A stretch of 64,000 nucleotides of DNA, from contig JAGTXX020000002.1 of assembly GCA_019044685.2 (NCBI GenBank), forward strand, positions 682,001-746,000, written 5' to 3'. This DNA is from Nannochloris sp. 'desiccata'. Its lineage: Eukaryota > Chlorophyta > Trebouxiophyceae > Chlorellales > Chlorellaceae. A program made the position numbers and the translations under genes. This document shows positions 19,459-27,239 of the stretch, piece after piece. Within the stretch, counting starts at the first letter, position 1. Each line of letters opens with the position of its first letter. The notes under the pieces were generated by a model. It was given only the letters and a program-made list of their open reading frames with translations, was not told the DNA's origin and made no database searches.

Positions 19459-19764
19459 TGTGTTTCTAATCTCTTCAAATAAATAGTAACATGCTTGAAA
19501 TGCTCTATGTGTTCGCTTCTTCAAGAGCTTTTCCCAGCACGACAAGCTTGCCAAGTTGAGCAAATCTAATATATTCTTCAATACTGCCTTCCTACTACCT
19601 TTAATTGTTTTTTACATTCGTATATAAAGGAATTCAAGGTCCTTAGCACCGGTTTCCATCGCCTGAGACGTGGGTCTGAATATTCTGACAGCAATTTTTG
19701 AACTACAAGAGAACAATTTGTTATAGTCAGCTCGTTGAACGGATTATTTAGTGCTTTAAAAACA
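19459..19764. promoter_or_regulatory. Divergent 5' region, DUF866 gene / MinE
   Basis: 306 bases between two start codons pointing apart; it must contain both promoters. No motif was assigned. Confidence 0.45.
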
Positions 19765-21235
19765 ATGCTGAGCAGCGCTACGAAGCTGTCCCTCGCTTCT
19801 GGGCTCTCTCAGGTGCGTTTTGACCGAACTCTATGTTTCTCAATGCCCAACTGCAATATGATCTTGGCAGCAAATTCTATCATTACAGCCACCCATGCCA
19901 GCCAAACCCACAATTTTCATTACCTTTGTTTGCAGCCCTTGCCCCCTCGCCCTGCACAGACCTCACAGCGCCGTGCAGGCGCTGTTACTGTAGGTGCTAC
20001 TCGCAGCGGAACTGAAGGAGGCGCTGCTCTGGACCCAGAGGCTGTCGCTATGCTCAATGCTGCTCGCAAACGCATTGGTACCCGTCCTTCTTCTTCCACA
20101 GCCGGTGCTGCTGCCCGTCCTAGCATTGAACTCTCCCCAGATGCAGACTTTGTTGCCAAGGTGAAGGCGGCATGGCGTATCTTTTTTCCTGAAAAGCAGC
20201 GCCCACTCAGCCCTAAAGAAGAGGGCAAGAAGAGACTTCGAATGATTCTTGTTGCAGACAGGTACGCAGATTTTAATACAATTAGTAGTAGAACAAGAAA
20301 AATCTAGTATTTAGTAGCTATAAATACCAGCCAATGTTCTCTCTGTTTCCGCACACCCCACCCGTGTTTAATAATTAAGTTAGTATGTATATTTCACTTT
20401 CCCCTTTCTTTTACTACTTCTGTACTGTAGGTGCGGTATGAGTTCTGATTCTCTTGCTGGTATGCGTGAAAGCATTGTCAGGGCAATGGAATCTTTTGTT
20501 GAAGTAGAATCTGAAGAAGCAGTCGAGGTGAGATATTCTTACTTGAGAAATAAATAGACTAACCGAGCGTCCCCCCCTCCCTTTTCTTTCTTTCTCTTCT
20601 TTCTTCTTTTCCCCGCCCCCCCCTCTCCGGCCCCTTCTCCACCATAATACATTCAATCTACTACCATTGTTGGGTTCTTTCCCTTTTCCCCTGTTTCCCC
20701 CTATTTTTTGTTATAATTTTCCGTTCAAGCAGAGTCGGTCTTGGCAATCAAGCTATCGAAGCGATGCGTGATGGAATTTTGCAGGCTGTGGAGCCTTATG
20801 TGGAGGTCGAATGCACTGAAGCAGTCGAGGTGAAGAAGCAATTCTCTCTCTCTTTTCTTTTTTTCGTCTTACAAGCCCAGTTTTGCCCATTTTCCCCGCC
20901 TTTCAGCCCAATTTTGTTTTTCCATTTTCAACTCTTTTCGTGTTTAGCCTTTCTTTTTTGGGGGGCAGTAGCCATCATTTTCTATTCTCTCTCTTTTCAT
21001 CTACTATATAAAAACACTTCCTAACCTACCTCCTCCCTCATTTTCTTGCTTTCTTTCTCCCACTCTACAGGTAAATCTCTCGATGGATCCTGAAATTGGC
21101 ACCATCTACTCTGTGGCTGTCCCTGTGCGCAGAGTGAAGCCTTCTATGCGCCCTGGAATGGATGATGCTGCTGCGTTATTTGATCCTTCAGATCCTAACG
21201 CAGATCCAGCTGATCAATTCCCTTATGGAACTTGA
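19765..21235 (+). CDS. MinE: Plastid division-site regulator MinE, with mutually exclusive exons
   Basis: Exons: 1, 19765-19812; 2, 19936-20261; 3a, 20431-20527; 3b, 20733-20829; 4, 21071-21235. Using exon 3a or 3b, the product is 211 residues. Exons 1-2 give the transit peptide and the N-terminal MinD-interacting part (KAAWRIFFPEK, KKRLRMILVADR). Exon 3 supplies the following loop, helix and strand. Exon 4 supplies VNLSMDPEIGTIYSVAVPV then RRVKPS, the conserved end of the dimer domain. MinE drives MinD off membranes and places the plastid FtsZ ring at mid-plastid. Exons 3a and 3b are both 97 nt, both phase-compatible, and encode related but different peptides. Including both or neither shifts the frame. 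The C-terminal 30 residues (acidic, Asp/Pro-rich) extend beyond the usual bacterial end. Confidence 0.94.
20431..20527 (+). other. MinE: MinE alternative exon 3a
   Basis: 97 nt between ctgtactgtag and gtgagat. It encodes (R)CGMSSDSLAGMRESIVRAM followed by ESFVEVESEEAVE, close to the standard plant and algal MinE sequence. Confidence 0.92.
20733..20829 (+). other. MinE: MinE alternative exon 3b
   Basis: 97 nt between gttcaagcag and gtgaaga. It encodes (R)VGLGNQAIEAMRDGILQAV followed by EPYVEVECTEAVE. It is 14/32 identical to exon 3a, with the remaining changes largely conservative and no stop or indel, so it looks like a maintained duplicate rather than a relic. Confidence 0.9.
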
Positions 21236-21567
21236 GTTGGACGTCTATTAGATTTTGTTTTTAGAAAATTTTATCATCGTTGGATGTTTTTAATCAGATT
21301 CTTTCCGAGATTTTTCTTTAAGGTTGTTATTAAGAAAATCGTAGATATGTAGAGATCTATGGTATGACCATAATACGCGTACCGTAGCTCTAAAGTAGAA
21401 GATTGTACTGCTGTTTTTCCCTTTCGCTTTTTAATAGATTTTAAGCCTGTTTTTTTTTAAGAAAGATACTAAGAATTAGAAAATCTCTCCTGATGATATT
21501 GCAATCAGCCAACAAGAACGAATGTAAATGTACGATCGATTAATGAAAATACCAACTATCCGTGGTT
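21236..21567. other. Convergent 3' region, MinE / ankyrin gene
   Basis: 332 A/T-rich bases between facing stop codons. No gene seen. Confidence 0.5.
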
Positions 21568-22709: not shown

Positions 22710-23378
22710 ATGGATTTTGAAGAGTTCTTAGGCCCTCCCGATGTAGTTGTGGAGGAGTGCGAGGATGACATTGATAACATTGACTCCGGTATTAGCACTT
22801 TCGAGGATGCACCCCTTAATTGGGACATCTGCGATGTATCAATAAATGCCTCGGATAAGAAATATATCCTTGAAATGGCAAAAGAGGTATTTAAAACTTT
22901 GCGAGACGGCAACCTGACTCAAGAGCAATTGATCAACAAACATGCTGTCGGTAGCCTGGAAAGGTACAAATGGATGCTTACATTCACTTTGTTCGATTTT
23001 TATGACATGGATTTTAGCGCCAAGTTGTCCTCGATTCACAATAATGCAAGGCTGACTTGTCCATGCTGCCATGGTCCACCCGTCAGTCAGGGGCCTGTGT
23101 GGGACAGAATCCGCTGGATTTCCTCTTTAATAGGATTCCAGTTTGTCCTGATACACAAATACTGGTGTAAAGATTGCAAAGGTGCGACGCATGCACCTGG
23201 ATGCATGCGTCGCACCTTTGCATGCGAACAAGCAAATGACTTAAAACCACTACCAAATAATAAAAACAATACAGAAAAATCTCAACTTTCCTTTTGTGTA
23301 AACAAAAATGCGGGATTGCCAGGTGTCGCTCCAGCCACTCTCTCATCAACCTCACTTGCAGCAGCCATCTCCTCATAG
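22710..23378 (+). pseudogene. Cysteine-rich ORF interrupted by a palindrome, possibly transposon-derived
   Basis: The ATG at 22710 opens an ORF starting MDFEEFLGPPDVVVEE with an acidic N-terminus. A globular part follows (SDKKYILEMAKEVFKTLRD), then a zinc-ribbon-like region: LTCPCCHGPPVSQGP, IGFQFVLIHKYWCKDCKG. A perfect 20-bp inverted repeat cuts in right after CKDCKG. Beyond about 23282 the frame is only the antisense of the leucyl-tRNA synthetase gene, so the true C-terminus is missing or elsewhere. The CPxC, arginine/tryptophan, then KYWCKDCK layout resembles N-terminal zinc domains attached to transposase-like proteins, but I cannot assign a family. A truncated mobile-element relic is my best guess; a short functional gene is possible. 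Confidence 0.5.
23176..23221. repeat. Perfect inverted repeat, 20-bp arms, 6-nt loop
   Basis: Left arm 23176-23195 (gcaaaggtgcgacgcatgca), loop cctgga, right arm 23202-23221 its exact reverse complement. It would form a very stable hairpin in RNA or single-stranded DNA. It lies inside the cysteine-rich ORF, 61 bases from the 3' end of LeuRS. Confidence 0.97.
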
Positions 23379-26300
23379 CTTACACTTCTCACTGATACAC
23401 TGTCCACTTTTAACGCTCTGGTCAGATACCCCACGTTCTCTTCCAATAAAGCCGCTTCATCAAAAGGTAATTTTGTGTTCAAAGCATCGGGGCCAACTGT
23501 CAGTAACACAGCATCTACTGTTTGCTTTGCAAACGGCATAACGAATGATTTAATGCCCTTTTGACCCATAGATTGTATCTCTGGATCAGCATTCGCAGCA
23601 GCGAGAACTTTCCCCATTACATCCGATGGGAATGTACCAGTACTGGAATCGTACAAGGAAGAAAGCAAGGATAAAATCATCGCTCTCCAACCCCCAAATT
23701 CTGTAGAGACCACAATTTCAACTGCAGTGACTTTGCCAGGCGTAGGGCCAGGAGGAGTTCCTTTTTTGACCTTTGGAGGTGCTTCGCTTTTCGCTATGGC
23801 CTTTCTAATCATCACGATGGCACTTTCCACATACACAGCGGTTCGTTGTAAAAGTAAATCTGGTTTTGCCGAGACCGGCCACCCAGCCTTGATGACCAAT
23901 CCTGGTTTCTTTAAGACATTACCCCAGAGATGCTCACACCAATGTGGACATACCGGTGTCAATAATAAGGTGGACACTTCCAAATACCGTACTATTAAAC
24001 GTCTATTAAGCCCCTCAGGACCACATGCAAATCGATAGGTATCACGGGCGTTGGTCAAATCGTACCATCCCACCTTCAAAGCTTCTCTAAACATGTAGGA
24101 ATCGTATGCAGCTTTGGCACCATGAATGGCAATATTCATTTCATTGTCAAATGTTTTATCTAAGAATGAAGTTGGCTCTTCATCTCTCATGGTGTCCAAT
24201 GCAGCCATGCACTCTTCAGACCAGATGAGTTCTTTTGAAAGCTTGAGAATGGCTGCATTTGCAGTACCATGTTCAAAATTAGCATCATCCATACCATCAC
24301 CGGCATCAGCAAGACCAACACGCATCGCATCTGCTGAATATTCTTTGATTGCTTCATCGAGTGTTTTGAAATTACCTGTGGACTTACTCATTTTTTCAGC
24401 ATTGAGTAGTAAATGTCCATTTGCACGCATTCCACGTGGCCATAACTCGGGTTTATCAGACCATACGGCAGTATGGTTGTACAGACAAAAAGTCAAATGA
24501 TTTTGGATCAGATCTTTTCCAGAGACACGGAGATCAAATGGATACCAGTATTCAAATTCTTTCTTCATTTTGGTTAACGTCTCAGCAGGCACAGCACAGG
24601 TAGCAGGGTTTGGCATATCACCTTGTAAGAATACATAGTCCCAGACTTCTGTAGTCAAGTCTTCAGGTTTGATCCCGGCGGGGGCTGCTCCGGGACCACT
24701 GCAATACATATCCCCACCTTGCAAGAAATGAGCTACAGTATAATAGGCCATATATATAGTAGAGTCAGAGAGGGATTCAATAAGGTAGACAGGATCCCAT
24801 GGTAGGCGAGTACCAAGACCAAAAGAACGTGAACATGCCCATTGATTAAGCCAGTCTAAAGTTTGACCAAACGTATTTTTTGCGCTCTCATCAAAAGTTT
24901 CCATTTTTTCGAGGCAACCTAAAGTTGCTTCCTTCCATTCTTGTTCTCCATAGGTAATATACCATTGATCAGTCAAAGCAACGACGCACTCATCACCAGA
25001 ACGAGAGATAACTTGACGCTCAGGTTCGGAATAAAGTAAAGCTTCTCCACTTTCAAGCATCTCGGCTTTGATCACAGGTTTGACCTCGTTGACTTTTTTA
25101 CCAGCATGTGGTCCAATAATTAAAACACCATCAGTGAATCCTTTTAAATACACCAGTTGCTTTGCTTCAGCGAGTTTCTTTGTATCGTTTTGAGATTGGA
25201 TCTTCATGTCCTCGCACACTTTTTGAGCAGCAGCGCTACCAAAGCCTGGAATATCGATAATAGGGATTACCTCGTAGGGCATCACCATAGAATCTTCAAT
25301 TCCATACTTTTCACGCAATTTAGGTTTATTTTTCAAGTCCATCAAAGCAGCGTAGTCATCGGGAGCATCTGAAGGCACCGAAGTAACGATGCCCGTTCCT
25401 TTATTTGTTAAGATAGTAAGTAAAGGAAGCACGAAGATACGTTCATGAGGGCATCGAGGGCTTGATACGGGTGTTCCTAGTAAATCTTCACCAGTAAATG
25501 CCAACAACTTTTCAGGTTTTCCTGTTTCAGGCATCAAATCCTGATAAGACATATTCAACGCTGATCTGTCCGTCATAATGTAAACTTCATTGTTTAGACC
25601 CCGGTACGCGCCATAATTACCATCAGGTAATGCCCAGCAATTCGTTTGACCATACATTGTTTCAGGACGTAAAGTAGCAGCAAGTAAATAGACTGGGCCT
25701 TGATTCTCCAAAGCTGATAAAATGCCAGTGAGCTCGAGGACCTTCATTTTTATTAAAACATATTCTTGAGGACCCACACCTTCACCGCTTGCACGATCAT
25801 GATCAGCACAGGGTTGTTTATCTAAAGGAGAAAACACAGCGAATCTTTTATCTTTAACAATTTTACCAGCTCTGCGTAAGACTTCAAATTGCCATTTGAT
25901 GAAAGAATCATAAAAAGGGTTCACATCGGTAGTAATAAAAGCACGACGCCAATCTACACCGCATCCCATTTCTTTGATATCACGAACAGCCATTGGAGGG
26001 AAATATTGCAGCCAGTGCAGAGGGTCTGCAAATTTGGGAATCTCATCTTCAGGGATTCCGCTCATTTTTAAAATTTCCCACTGAGTCGCACCAGTGCCTT
26101 TCTTCGCCATATGCTTACTTTTCTTGGAAGTGAATTTTTTCAACATACCACGGGCAATGTTGGCTTCGGCTTCTGCTACTGCTGCATCATTCTCAGTTTT
26201 CTCAGCATTCTCAACAGCGGACGCAGCAGCATCCTCAAAGTCATCTGCCAAAGAAGAATAATTAGGAGGGCAGCCATAGGTATCAATTTCTCTCTTAAGC

Positions 26301-26605
26301 TTATCTGCGCATGCTTTGATAGGCATACCTGTGCAATGGAATCCTTGAGGGAAAAGCACATTCTTACCGCAAAGGCGGTGGTAGGCAGATGCGAACTCGA
26401 GTTTAGAGAGAGAAAACGCATGACCTAAATGGAGGAGACCGTTCATATAAGGGTAGGGGAAATTTCCAAAGAATTTGGTCTCGATAGTGCCAGGGTCATC
26501 ACCAGCATCAGCTTCAAAAGCTTTCTCTGCTTCCCATTTTGCCTGTGCCGCCTTTTGTAATTGCAATAGCAAATCACGGCGAGCAAAGCTCTGCTGAGCC
26601 TGCAT
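23282..26605 (-). CDS. LeuRS: Leucyl-tRNA synthetase, cytosolic type
   Basis: An intronless 1,107-residue class I synthetase. The HIGH-type motif is GLLHLGHAF in FFGNFPYPYMNGLLHLGHAF, and KMSKS is present as AEKMSKSTGNFKTLDE. A CP1 editing insertion with the threonine-rich and GTGIVTSVPSDAPDDY segments lies between. The tRNA-anticodon-binding helical domain and the archaeal/eukaryotic C-terminal extension (VEIVVSTEFGGWRAMILSLL) identify the cytosolic rather than the bacterial/organellar type. It charges tRNA-Leu and hydrolyses mischarged tRNA. Length is usual for the family. It is divergent from kinesin-13. Confidence 0.96.
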   Translation of the reverse strand: MQAQQSFARRDLLLQLQKAAQAKWEAEKAFEADAGDDPGTIETKFFGNFPYPYMNGLLHLGHAFSLSKLEFASAYHRLCGKNVLFPQGFHCTGMPIKACADKLKREIDTYGCPPNYSSLADDFEDAAASAVENAEKTENDAAVAEAEANIARGMLKKFTSKKSKHMAKKGTGATQWEILKMSGIPEDEIPKFADPLHWLQYFPPMAVRDIKEMGCGVDWRRAFITTDVNPFYDSFIKWQFEVLRRAGKIVKDKRFAVFSPLDKQPCADHDRASGEGVGPQEYVLIKMKVLELTGILSALENQGPVYLLAATLRPETMYGQTNCWALPDGNYGAYRGLNNEVYIMTDRSALNMSYQDLMPETGKPEKLLAFTGEDLLGTPVSSPRCPHERIFVLPLLTILTNKGTGIVTSVPSDAPDDYAALMDLKNKPKLREKYGIEDSMVMPYEVIPIIDIPGFGSAAAQKVCEDMKIQSQNDTKKLAEAKQLVYLKGFTDGVLIIGPHAGKKVNEVKPVIKAEMLESGEALLYSEPERQVISRSGDECVVALTDQWYITYGEQEWKEATLGCLEKMETFDESAKNTFGQTLDWLNQWACSRSFGLGTRLPWDPVYLIESLSDSTIYMAYYTVAHFLQGGDMYCSGPGAAPAGIKPEDLTTEVWDYVFLQGDMPNPATCAVPAETLTKMKKEFEYWYPFDLRVSGKDLIQNHLTFCLYNHTAVWSDKPELWPRGMRANGHLLLNAEKMSKSTGNFKTLDEAIKEYSADAMRVGLADAGDGMDDANFEHGTANAAILKLSKELIWSEECMAALDTMRDEEPTSFLDKTFDNEMNIAIHGAKAAYDSYMFREALKVGWYDLTNARDTYRFACGPEGLNRRLIVRYLEVSTLLLTPVCPHWCEHLWGNVLKKPGLVIKAGWPVSAKPDLLLQRTAVYVESAIVMIRKAIAKSEAPPKVKKGTPPGPTPGKVTAVEIVVSTEFGGWRAMILSLLSSLYDSSTGTFPSDVMGKVLAAANADPEIQSMGQKGIKSFVMPFAKQTVDAVLLTVGPDALNTKLPFDEAALLEENVGYLTRALKVDSVSVRSVSYEEMAAASEVDERVAGATPGNPAFLFTQKES

Positions 26606-27239
26606 AGGCGATTCAAGGATATTGGGTATTTAAGTTAGTATATTTACAAAGAGAAATAAGCGGAAAATTTGCTTCCACCACCATTTTTAAGAGGGTTTTG
26701 ATTAGCCGATTTGAGATTCAAGATGAAATAAAGAAATTAGCTAGAATGACGTCAGCTATTGATGCATCAGAAATTGTGATTCCTGATTAGATAATCTATA
26801 TGGGCATTGCAGCACATACCTCACTGGAAGTGTTCATTAAGCTCTAGTTGTTCAAGATGCAGCCGTCTTGGGCGACTAGGTAGAGGCGGCGCAGCAGTAG
26901 GGCGTACCAGTGTGTATTCGCTACACCAATCTTTGCATCTGATGCATTTCTAAACCTTCCGCTGTTGAAGTGGGTATGAAATTTTACTTTGTGTACCTTT
27001 GTGTACATCAACTCAAGAATTCAATCAATGGTCAACTAGATTCAGGAGGGCTCTTAAAGAACTCTTCATTAACTATTCTAATAAAAACAGGTGTACTAAT
27101 CTTGCCATAAGAAGCACGACAGAGTGGTGTTTCTTCGAAAAGACTTTCAACGACCTTTGGGAAATCAATCAGTTTCACCGAGTGCTTGTGCAATAGAAGA
27201 GCCAGCAGTGTATGATAGTTGCTAATTTTGTTCGCAATC
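26606..27239. promoter_or_regulatory. Divergent 5' region, LeuRS / kinesin-13
   Basis: 634 bases between two start codons pointing apart. Small ORFs here have no protein-like character. No RNA gene was recognised; both promoters and 5' UTRs must be here. Confidence 0.45.

Follow-up and report, generated by a model that had tools for sequence, protein, structure and literature searches.

A tandemly duplicated exon in the MinE gene of the green alga Nannochloris sp. 'desiccata' probably encodes two mutually exclusive versions of the dimer core

We report a MinE gene in which an internal exon is present in two tandem copies, 3a and 3b. The explanation that we hold to be probable as a whole is that of a single gene from which one copy of the exon is spliced into each mRNA, with version A as the default and version B used conditionally, in which the two copies are kept apart by the position of a branch site, and in which the choice exchanges the dimer core of the protein. 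MinE helps to place the division site of the chloroplast. The gene lies in the window, the whole 64,000-nt stretch of DNA that was analyzed, from Nannochloris sp. 'desiccata', a green alga of the Trebouxiophyceae (PMC11892635).

Results

Structure of the MinE gene and its two reading frames

The exon boundaries were rechecked from the DNA, and GT..AG was found at all four intron pairs of the MinE gene (Table 1). Exons 3a and 3b are entered in identical phase (after VAD, the split codon reads AG|G or AG|A), and both end in frame before VNLSMDPEIG, which bore out the initial, sequence-only reading of two exons of exactly 97 nt sharing one phase between these flanks. Splicing of exons 1, 2, and 4 with either 3a or 3b gave open reading frames of 636 nt and 211 aa each, and the two MinE isoforms that had been predicted thus hold at the level of sequence. 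When 3a and 3b were joined, the frame stopped after 169 aa, and when both were skipped, it stopped after 125 aa; the claim that the frame forces the use of exactly one of them was therefore correct. The two exons are adjacent and homologous, have GT/AG sites and equal phase, and are unproductive when jointly included or jointly skipped, all of which characterizes a mutually exclusive pair. Exon 1 probably encodes the start of a chloroplast transit peptide.

Table 1. Features of the MinE gene, with positions counted from the first letter of the window
Feature	Positions	Strand	Size, sequence and basis
MinE exon 1	19765..19812	+	48 nt; translation, same as P0001
MinE exon 2, constitutive, with MinD-contact motif KKRLRMILVADR	19936..20261	+	326 nt; translation and 3r9j (E. 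coli MinE) alignment
Exon 3a, A-type (RCGM...), encoding the dimer-core segment of loop, main helix and first part of the following strand	20431..20527	+	97 nt; donor GTGAGA
Intron between 3a and 3b	20528..20732	+	205 nt; 73% pyrimidine
Candidate distant branch site CTAAC, with its A at 20562	20559..20563	+	inferred from motif
Exon 3b, B-type (RVGLGNQAIEAMR...), alternative form of the exon 3a segment	20733..20829	+	97 nt; donor GTGAAG
Intron between 3b and exon 4, with CTAAC at 21021, 46 nt upstream of the acceptor	20830..21070	+	sequence
MinE exon 4, constitutive: remaining dimer core and C-terminus, stop TGA	21071..21235	+	165 nt; translation

Isoform A was identical over 211/211 aa to P0001, the annotated MinE protein of this species. 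Exon 3a is present both in P0001 and in P0002, a translation from a 1,073-nt contig in which isoform A is seen spliced; this contig is tagged lgn, which we took to denote a Logan assembly of reads. Among the 120 listed of 186 matches, isoform A appeared twice (P0001 and P0002) and isoform B of this species was not found. Read assemblies of this kind may drop minor isoforms, and the absence of isoform B is thus weak evidence. The donor of 3a is presumably nearer to the usual consensus than that of 3b, and given that 3a is also the sole form seen spliced, it is probably the default exon. Splicing would then yield isoform A by default and isoform B under some condition, for which light, cell cycle, or plastid type had initially been suggested, while stray splice products would be eliminated as mRNAs with premature stops.

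Candidate mechanisms preventing the joining of 3a to 3b

The A of the CTAAC motif is separated by 35 nt from the 3a donor and by 170 nt from the 3b acceptor downstream. Only two YTNAY sites were present in the intron between the exons, CTTAC at +14 and this CTAAC at +35, and the 166 nt after CTAAC contained none, compared with 4.06 in shuffles (P = 0.003, in a test chosen post hoc). The stretch from 165 nt to 3 nt upstream of the 3b acceptor AG was free of AG, ending at the acceptor's own AAGCAG; the AG count in this tract (2 vs 1.51 expected) matched base composition. In 254 kb, an AG-free run of at least 160 nt followed 1 of 221 CTAAC sites and no site of 11 other pentamers, and the spacing of pentamers in the same 254 kb gave no clear branch-consensus signal for this genome. 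The intron between 3b and exon 4 was as pyrimidine-rich (73%) as that between 3a and 3b.

This layout resembles that of human OGDH exons 4a and 4b, whose branch adenines are placed 25–41 nt from the upstream donor and precede a large pyrimidine tract (PMC7969005). The same source proposes a steric limit of approximately 50 nt between donor and branch site and also names tropomyosin and actinin (PMC7969005). OGDH is a vertebrate gene with mapped branch points, whereas the branch point of MinE is a predicted one. By analogy, a branch site for 3b only 35 nt from the 3a donor would be too near to it, and the joining of 3a to 3b would be prevented. Such a steric block is possible but not proven, and we give it about even odds.

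Equally balanced, in our estimate, is the view that the exons are kept apart by the reading frame together with mRNA decay, or by regulatory proteins alone, with no distant branch point. This view gains from the comparison with eight introns inferred, by rough scoring, in carrier genes elsewhere in the genome, whose best AG-free lengths were 22, 84, 74, 18, 16, 89, 98, and 108 nt: the tract reached 74–108 nt in five of the eight, and CTAAC occurred in one. It gains also from two weaker sites closer to 3b, ATAAT at 20647 and at 20716, which could serve this exon without steric block, and from the agreement of the AG-free tract with base composition. It is opposed by the lack of YTNAY sites after CTAAC where about four were expected and by the OGDH-like arrangement (PMC7969005).

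An RNA switch made of competing hairpins was also considered and was rejected: the 809-nt region folded with z = +2.0, and 20/20 shuffles folded at least as well. The region 19700–21300 contained just two weak pairs of inverted repeats, and the search of the window with Rfam at gathering scores returned no matches.

Conservation of exon 3b in a related alga

A third protein search, with a 74-aa query that spanned 3b together with the end of exon 2 and the beginning of exon 4, yielded 23 matches. One of these, P0133 (115 aa), is an open reading frame that runs from one intron through 3b into the next, seemingly in another, related alga. Its exon part was identical to 3b at 31 of 33 residues, whereas the flanks read from intron matched at just 4/30 and 9/52 positions; both splice-edge residues were kept (SS, read from the acceptor, and VKK, read from the donor). 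P0133 was the only 3b open reading frame among the 23 matches. The retention of exon and edges while the intron-read flanks diverged indicates that 3b is probably not a decayed copy, and the suggestion to look for both exons in related species was in this way answered for 3b. P0015 is an exon 2 open reading frame of a relative, identical to exon 2 of the window at 97/108 residues. P0133 and P0015 may lie on one contig, as judged from the equal listed length (46,679 nt) of the longest contig of each, although their source tags differ (jgi vs lgn and ena). Coding conservation of the pair was thus observed exon by exon in separate sequences, for 3b in P0133 and for 3a as a similar segment in the majority of the MinE proteins retrieved. 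Conservation in another genome is, in terms of sequence, the strongest evidence for 3b, which is probably a working component of the switch.

B-type segments in other algae and the origin of the duplication

We compared 122 fetched MinE proteins with 3a and 3b by BLOSUM points. In six of them the fit to 3b exceeded that to 3a by 14 or 15 points: those of Chlorella vulgaris (P0089), Micractinium conductrix (P0053), and Micractinium tetrahymenae (P0090), and three more proteins. These B-like segments read like RVGMNEVTMEAMRERIIGAVSPYVEIE and have the hallmarks RVG, EAMR, and AV.PYVE. Five others scored low and favored 3b by 2–10 points; they were pieces of exon 2 lacking the exon 3 segment. The A-type was found in Picochlorum (P0017), Auxenochlorella (P0032), and Parachlorella (P0035). 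The segment started with RC in 110 of the 126 motif-bearing proteins, the remaining 16 being the six B-like proteins (RV), P0129 (RI), and nine that run into intron. The MinE of P0129 reads RIGLNTGAITEMK where nearly all others have RCG, and it fell outside the 3b group in the tree described below. On some genomic contigs, exons 2–4 or 3–4 were contained in one frame (P0024, contig of 121,472 nt; P0124, 8,903 nt); the introns needed for a switch therefore seem to be gone there.

In a tree of the exon built from 78 distinct segments and 33 columns, 3b, P0133, and three distinct B-like versions formed one group with support of 99/93. If this likeness reflects homology, as is likely, the B-type core functions in the MinE of a second lineage. 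A grouping of 3a with 3b and P0133 was 4.92 log-likelihood units lower, with a p-AU of 0.345, and the tree carries a warning of long branches meeting. A second tree, without exon 3 (33 rows, 58 columns), had too few columns for a firm placement of Nannochloris.

We tentatively propose that an ancient duplication of the exon gave rise to A and B cores around Chlorella. Some lineages would have kept A, partly in intron-free form (P0024), Chlorella and Micractinium would have kept or would mainly use B, and Nannochloris would keep both, as a switch that is locked by a distant branch point and retunes a reaction-diffusion system via the dimerization module. We accord the same limited credence to the opposite history, in which 3b arose more recently, by duplication within the Nannochloris lineage, and its likeness to Chlorella and Micractinium is due to convergence or long-branch attraction. 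The p-AU of the 3a, 3b, and P0133 group, which is compatible with the data, and the long-branch warning favor this history, whereas the 99/93 grouping and the features common to 3b, P0133, and the B-like rows (Val at the Cys site, EAM, and PYVE) speak against it.

Divergence between 3a and 3b

The encoded segments were identical at 15/33 residues with the split Arg codon and at 14/32 without it, with nine further conservative changes, in agreement with the earlier count of 14/32; at the nucleotide level, 38 of 97 positions differed. Against the Pfam MinE family (PF03776; curated cut-off, 25 bits), isoform A scored 44.0 bits and isoform B 45.6 bits, which places both in the family. With a profile of 77 distinct relatives, from which the six B-like proteins were left out, A (124.4) scored above B (102.8).

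We simulated neutral change by mutating 5000 copies of 3a to 38 differences, after which 2014 were free of stops. None of these 2014 reached the MinE-profile score of isoform B, and 73 of them kept an amino acid identity to 3a as high as that of 3b. When fewer changes were assumed, many stop-free copies reached the score of B (879/1136 at 12 changes, 513/1035 at 15, 187/966 at 19, 18/830 at 25, and 3/774 at 30), and the simulation of profile scores is therefore not decisive alone. A comparison of synonymous and non-synonymous rates between 3a and 3b gave a pN/pS of 0.54, compared with a neutral mean of 0.97; a value as low occurred in 39/1140 simulated values. The case for 3b as a real exon from within the window is good but not final.

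That 3b might be a decaying copy of 3a, spliced in rarely or never, appears improbable. It would account for the lack of an isoform B transcript or annotation among the matches listed, for the donor of 3b being further from consensus, and for the 187/966 neutral copies that score as well at 19 changes, but it is hard to reconcile with the 31/33 identity in another genome, where the boundaries are kept and the introns have diverged, with the B-like segment in six MinE proteins, or with the pN/pS. We consider it similarly improbable that 3b is a poison exon, whose joining to 3a or misuse would lower MinE dosage through a premature stop: joint inclusion and joint skipping do truncate the frame at 169 and 125 aa, but a MinE-like coding sequence, as seen in isoform B (45.6 bits) and in P0133 (31/33), would not be required of a poison exon.

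Part of MinE exchanged by the two exons

A profile of 38 MinE proteins matched 14 sequences of the PDB at E up to 10, comprising six solved MinE chains (best E = 0.043, a weak match) and eight unrelated ones (E of 0.51 and above); the search with a single sequence returned no PDB matches. Both isoforms thus resemble bacterial and plastid MinE in exceeding the family cut-off and in a family profile that finds solved MinE chains. The R of VADR, where exon 3 starts, aligned to the R of VAER in E. coli MinE (3r9j), which we take to be residue 29 if the 3r9j chain begins at residue 12. The minimal peptide that binds and activates MinD comprises residues 13–31 of E. coli MinE (PMC6922632). Since exon 3 begins near the end of this peptide, the peptide is almost wholly encoded by the constitutive exon 2. 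The exchanged part would lie in the dimer core and comprise the loop and main helix together with the beginning of the strand that follows. The sequence-only reading was right that the dimer-core helix is exchanged, but not that the exchanged part faces MinD, the peptide for MinD being nearly all in exon 2.

On activation of MinE, beta1 leaves the dimer interface and beta2 takes its place, and alpha2 touches lipid bicelles (PMC10031476). In vitro, the bare MinD-activating peptide does not form patterns unless a means of dimerization or of membrane binding is supplied (PMC6922632). The exchange would therefore spare the MinD-activating motif of exon 2 and replace the main helix and the start of the interface-replacing strand. 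Both isoforms have the same net charge (−5), and at 12 of the 18 positions where they differ, A has a polar, charged, or small residue. The change of Cys126 to Val is common to 3b, P0133, and the six B-like proteins. The choice of exon may thus retune the dimer module: A and B would differ in dimer stability, in switching, or in membrane contact, and mixed dimers would be possible. The effect of the Min pattern on the chloroplast division ring could in turn change in its place or its strength.

Genomic context and Min partners

The assembly that holds the window comprises 21.55 Mb in 18 contigs. With the 74-aa query at E up to 10, the sole three matches in this genome were exons 3b, 4, and 3a of the MinE gene, and no second MinE locus was found with this query. 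A Pfam search of the genome exon by exon gave no MinE matches at E 0.001, and a search for MinE relatives in viral contigs gave 38 pattern-matching stretches, none of which was confirmed. In the nuclear contigs, no MinD exceeded the cut-off, with six matches below it. The gene minD is listed in 5/5 compared algal plastids (PMC4023601). The partner proteins of the Min system may therefore originate from two compartments. Plastid minE is listed in one of these five plastids, by the text that of Chlorella vulgaris C-27 (PMC4023601). Chlorella vulgaris, so listed, also has a B-type nuclear MinE (P0089).

Genes of this genome are often without introns, as 12 of 14 chaperonin matches ran near full length in one frame. 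The neighbors of MinE in the window include a CXXC zinc-binding protein (PF05907; 18765–19202, minus strand) and a class I tRNA synthetase of 1115 aa in one open frame (23285–26629, minus strand). At G000:C6:72023-83631, four protein kinase matches of 131.1 bits each lie approximately 3.56 kb apart, and their equal scores indicate that nearly identical kinase genes are probably arranged in tandem there. Many paired or tripled matches with equal or nearly equal scores, often on opposite strands, were found on C15 (e.g., C15:740214 and C15:518238), C6/C13, and C9/C17, a pattern that points to large duplications, retention of haplotypes, or effects of assembly.

Discussion

To our knowledge, no MinE gene with alternative dimer-core exons has been described. 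Among the papers listed for MinE with plastid division and splicing, we found no report of mutually exclusive exons in a Min gene, in line with the initial statement that none is known for a plastid division gene. For the cyclophilin-type isomerase gene cyn23 of Volvox carteri, mutually exclusive exons are reported with RT-PCR for each variant (PMC4378016). Like the MinE pair, those of cyn23 are two adjacent exons of equal length in a green alga (106 nt, likewise not a multiple of 3); unlike it, they belong to another gene and are verified by RT-PCR in Volvox, whereas the MinE pair is known from sequence, and the available text on cyn23 describes no branch-point mechanism. Mutually exclusive exons are thus already known in green algae, and MinE is an unexpected gene for them.

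Few biological pattern-forming systems have been studied as thoroughly as the Min proteins. In a gene set that is often intron-less, the MinE gene of Nannochloris appears to exchange its dimer module by splicing while keeping the MinD-activating peptide. It is perhaps, by analogy, a unicellular instance of the splicing lock described in vertebrate genes. Isoforms A and B would constitute a natural pair for testing how the properties of the dimer set the pattern and place the chloroplast division ring.
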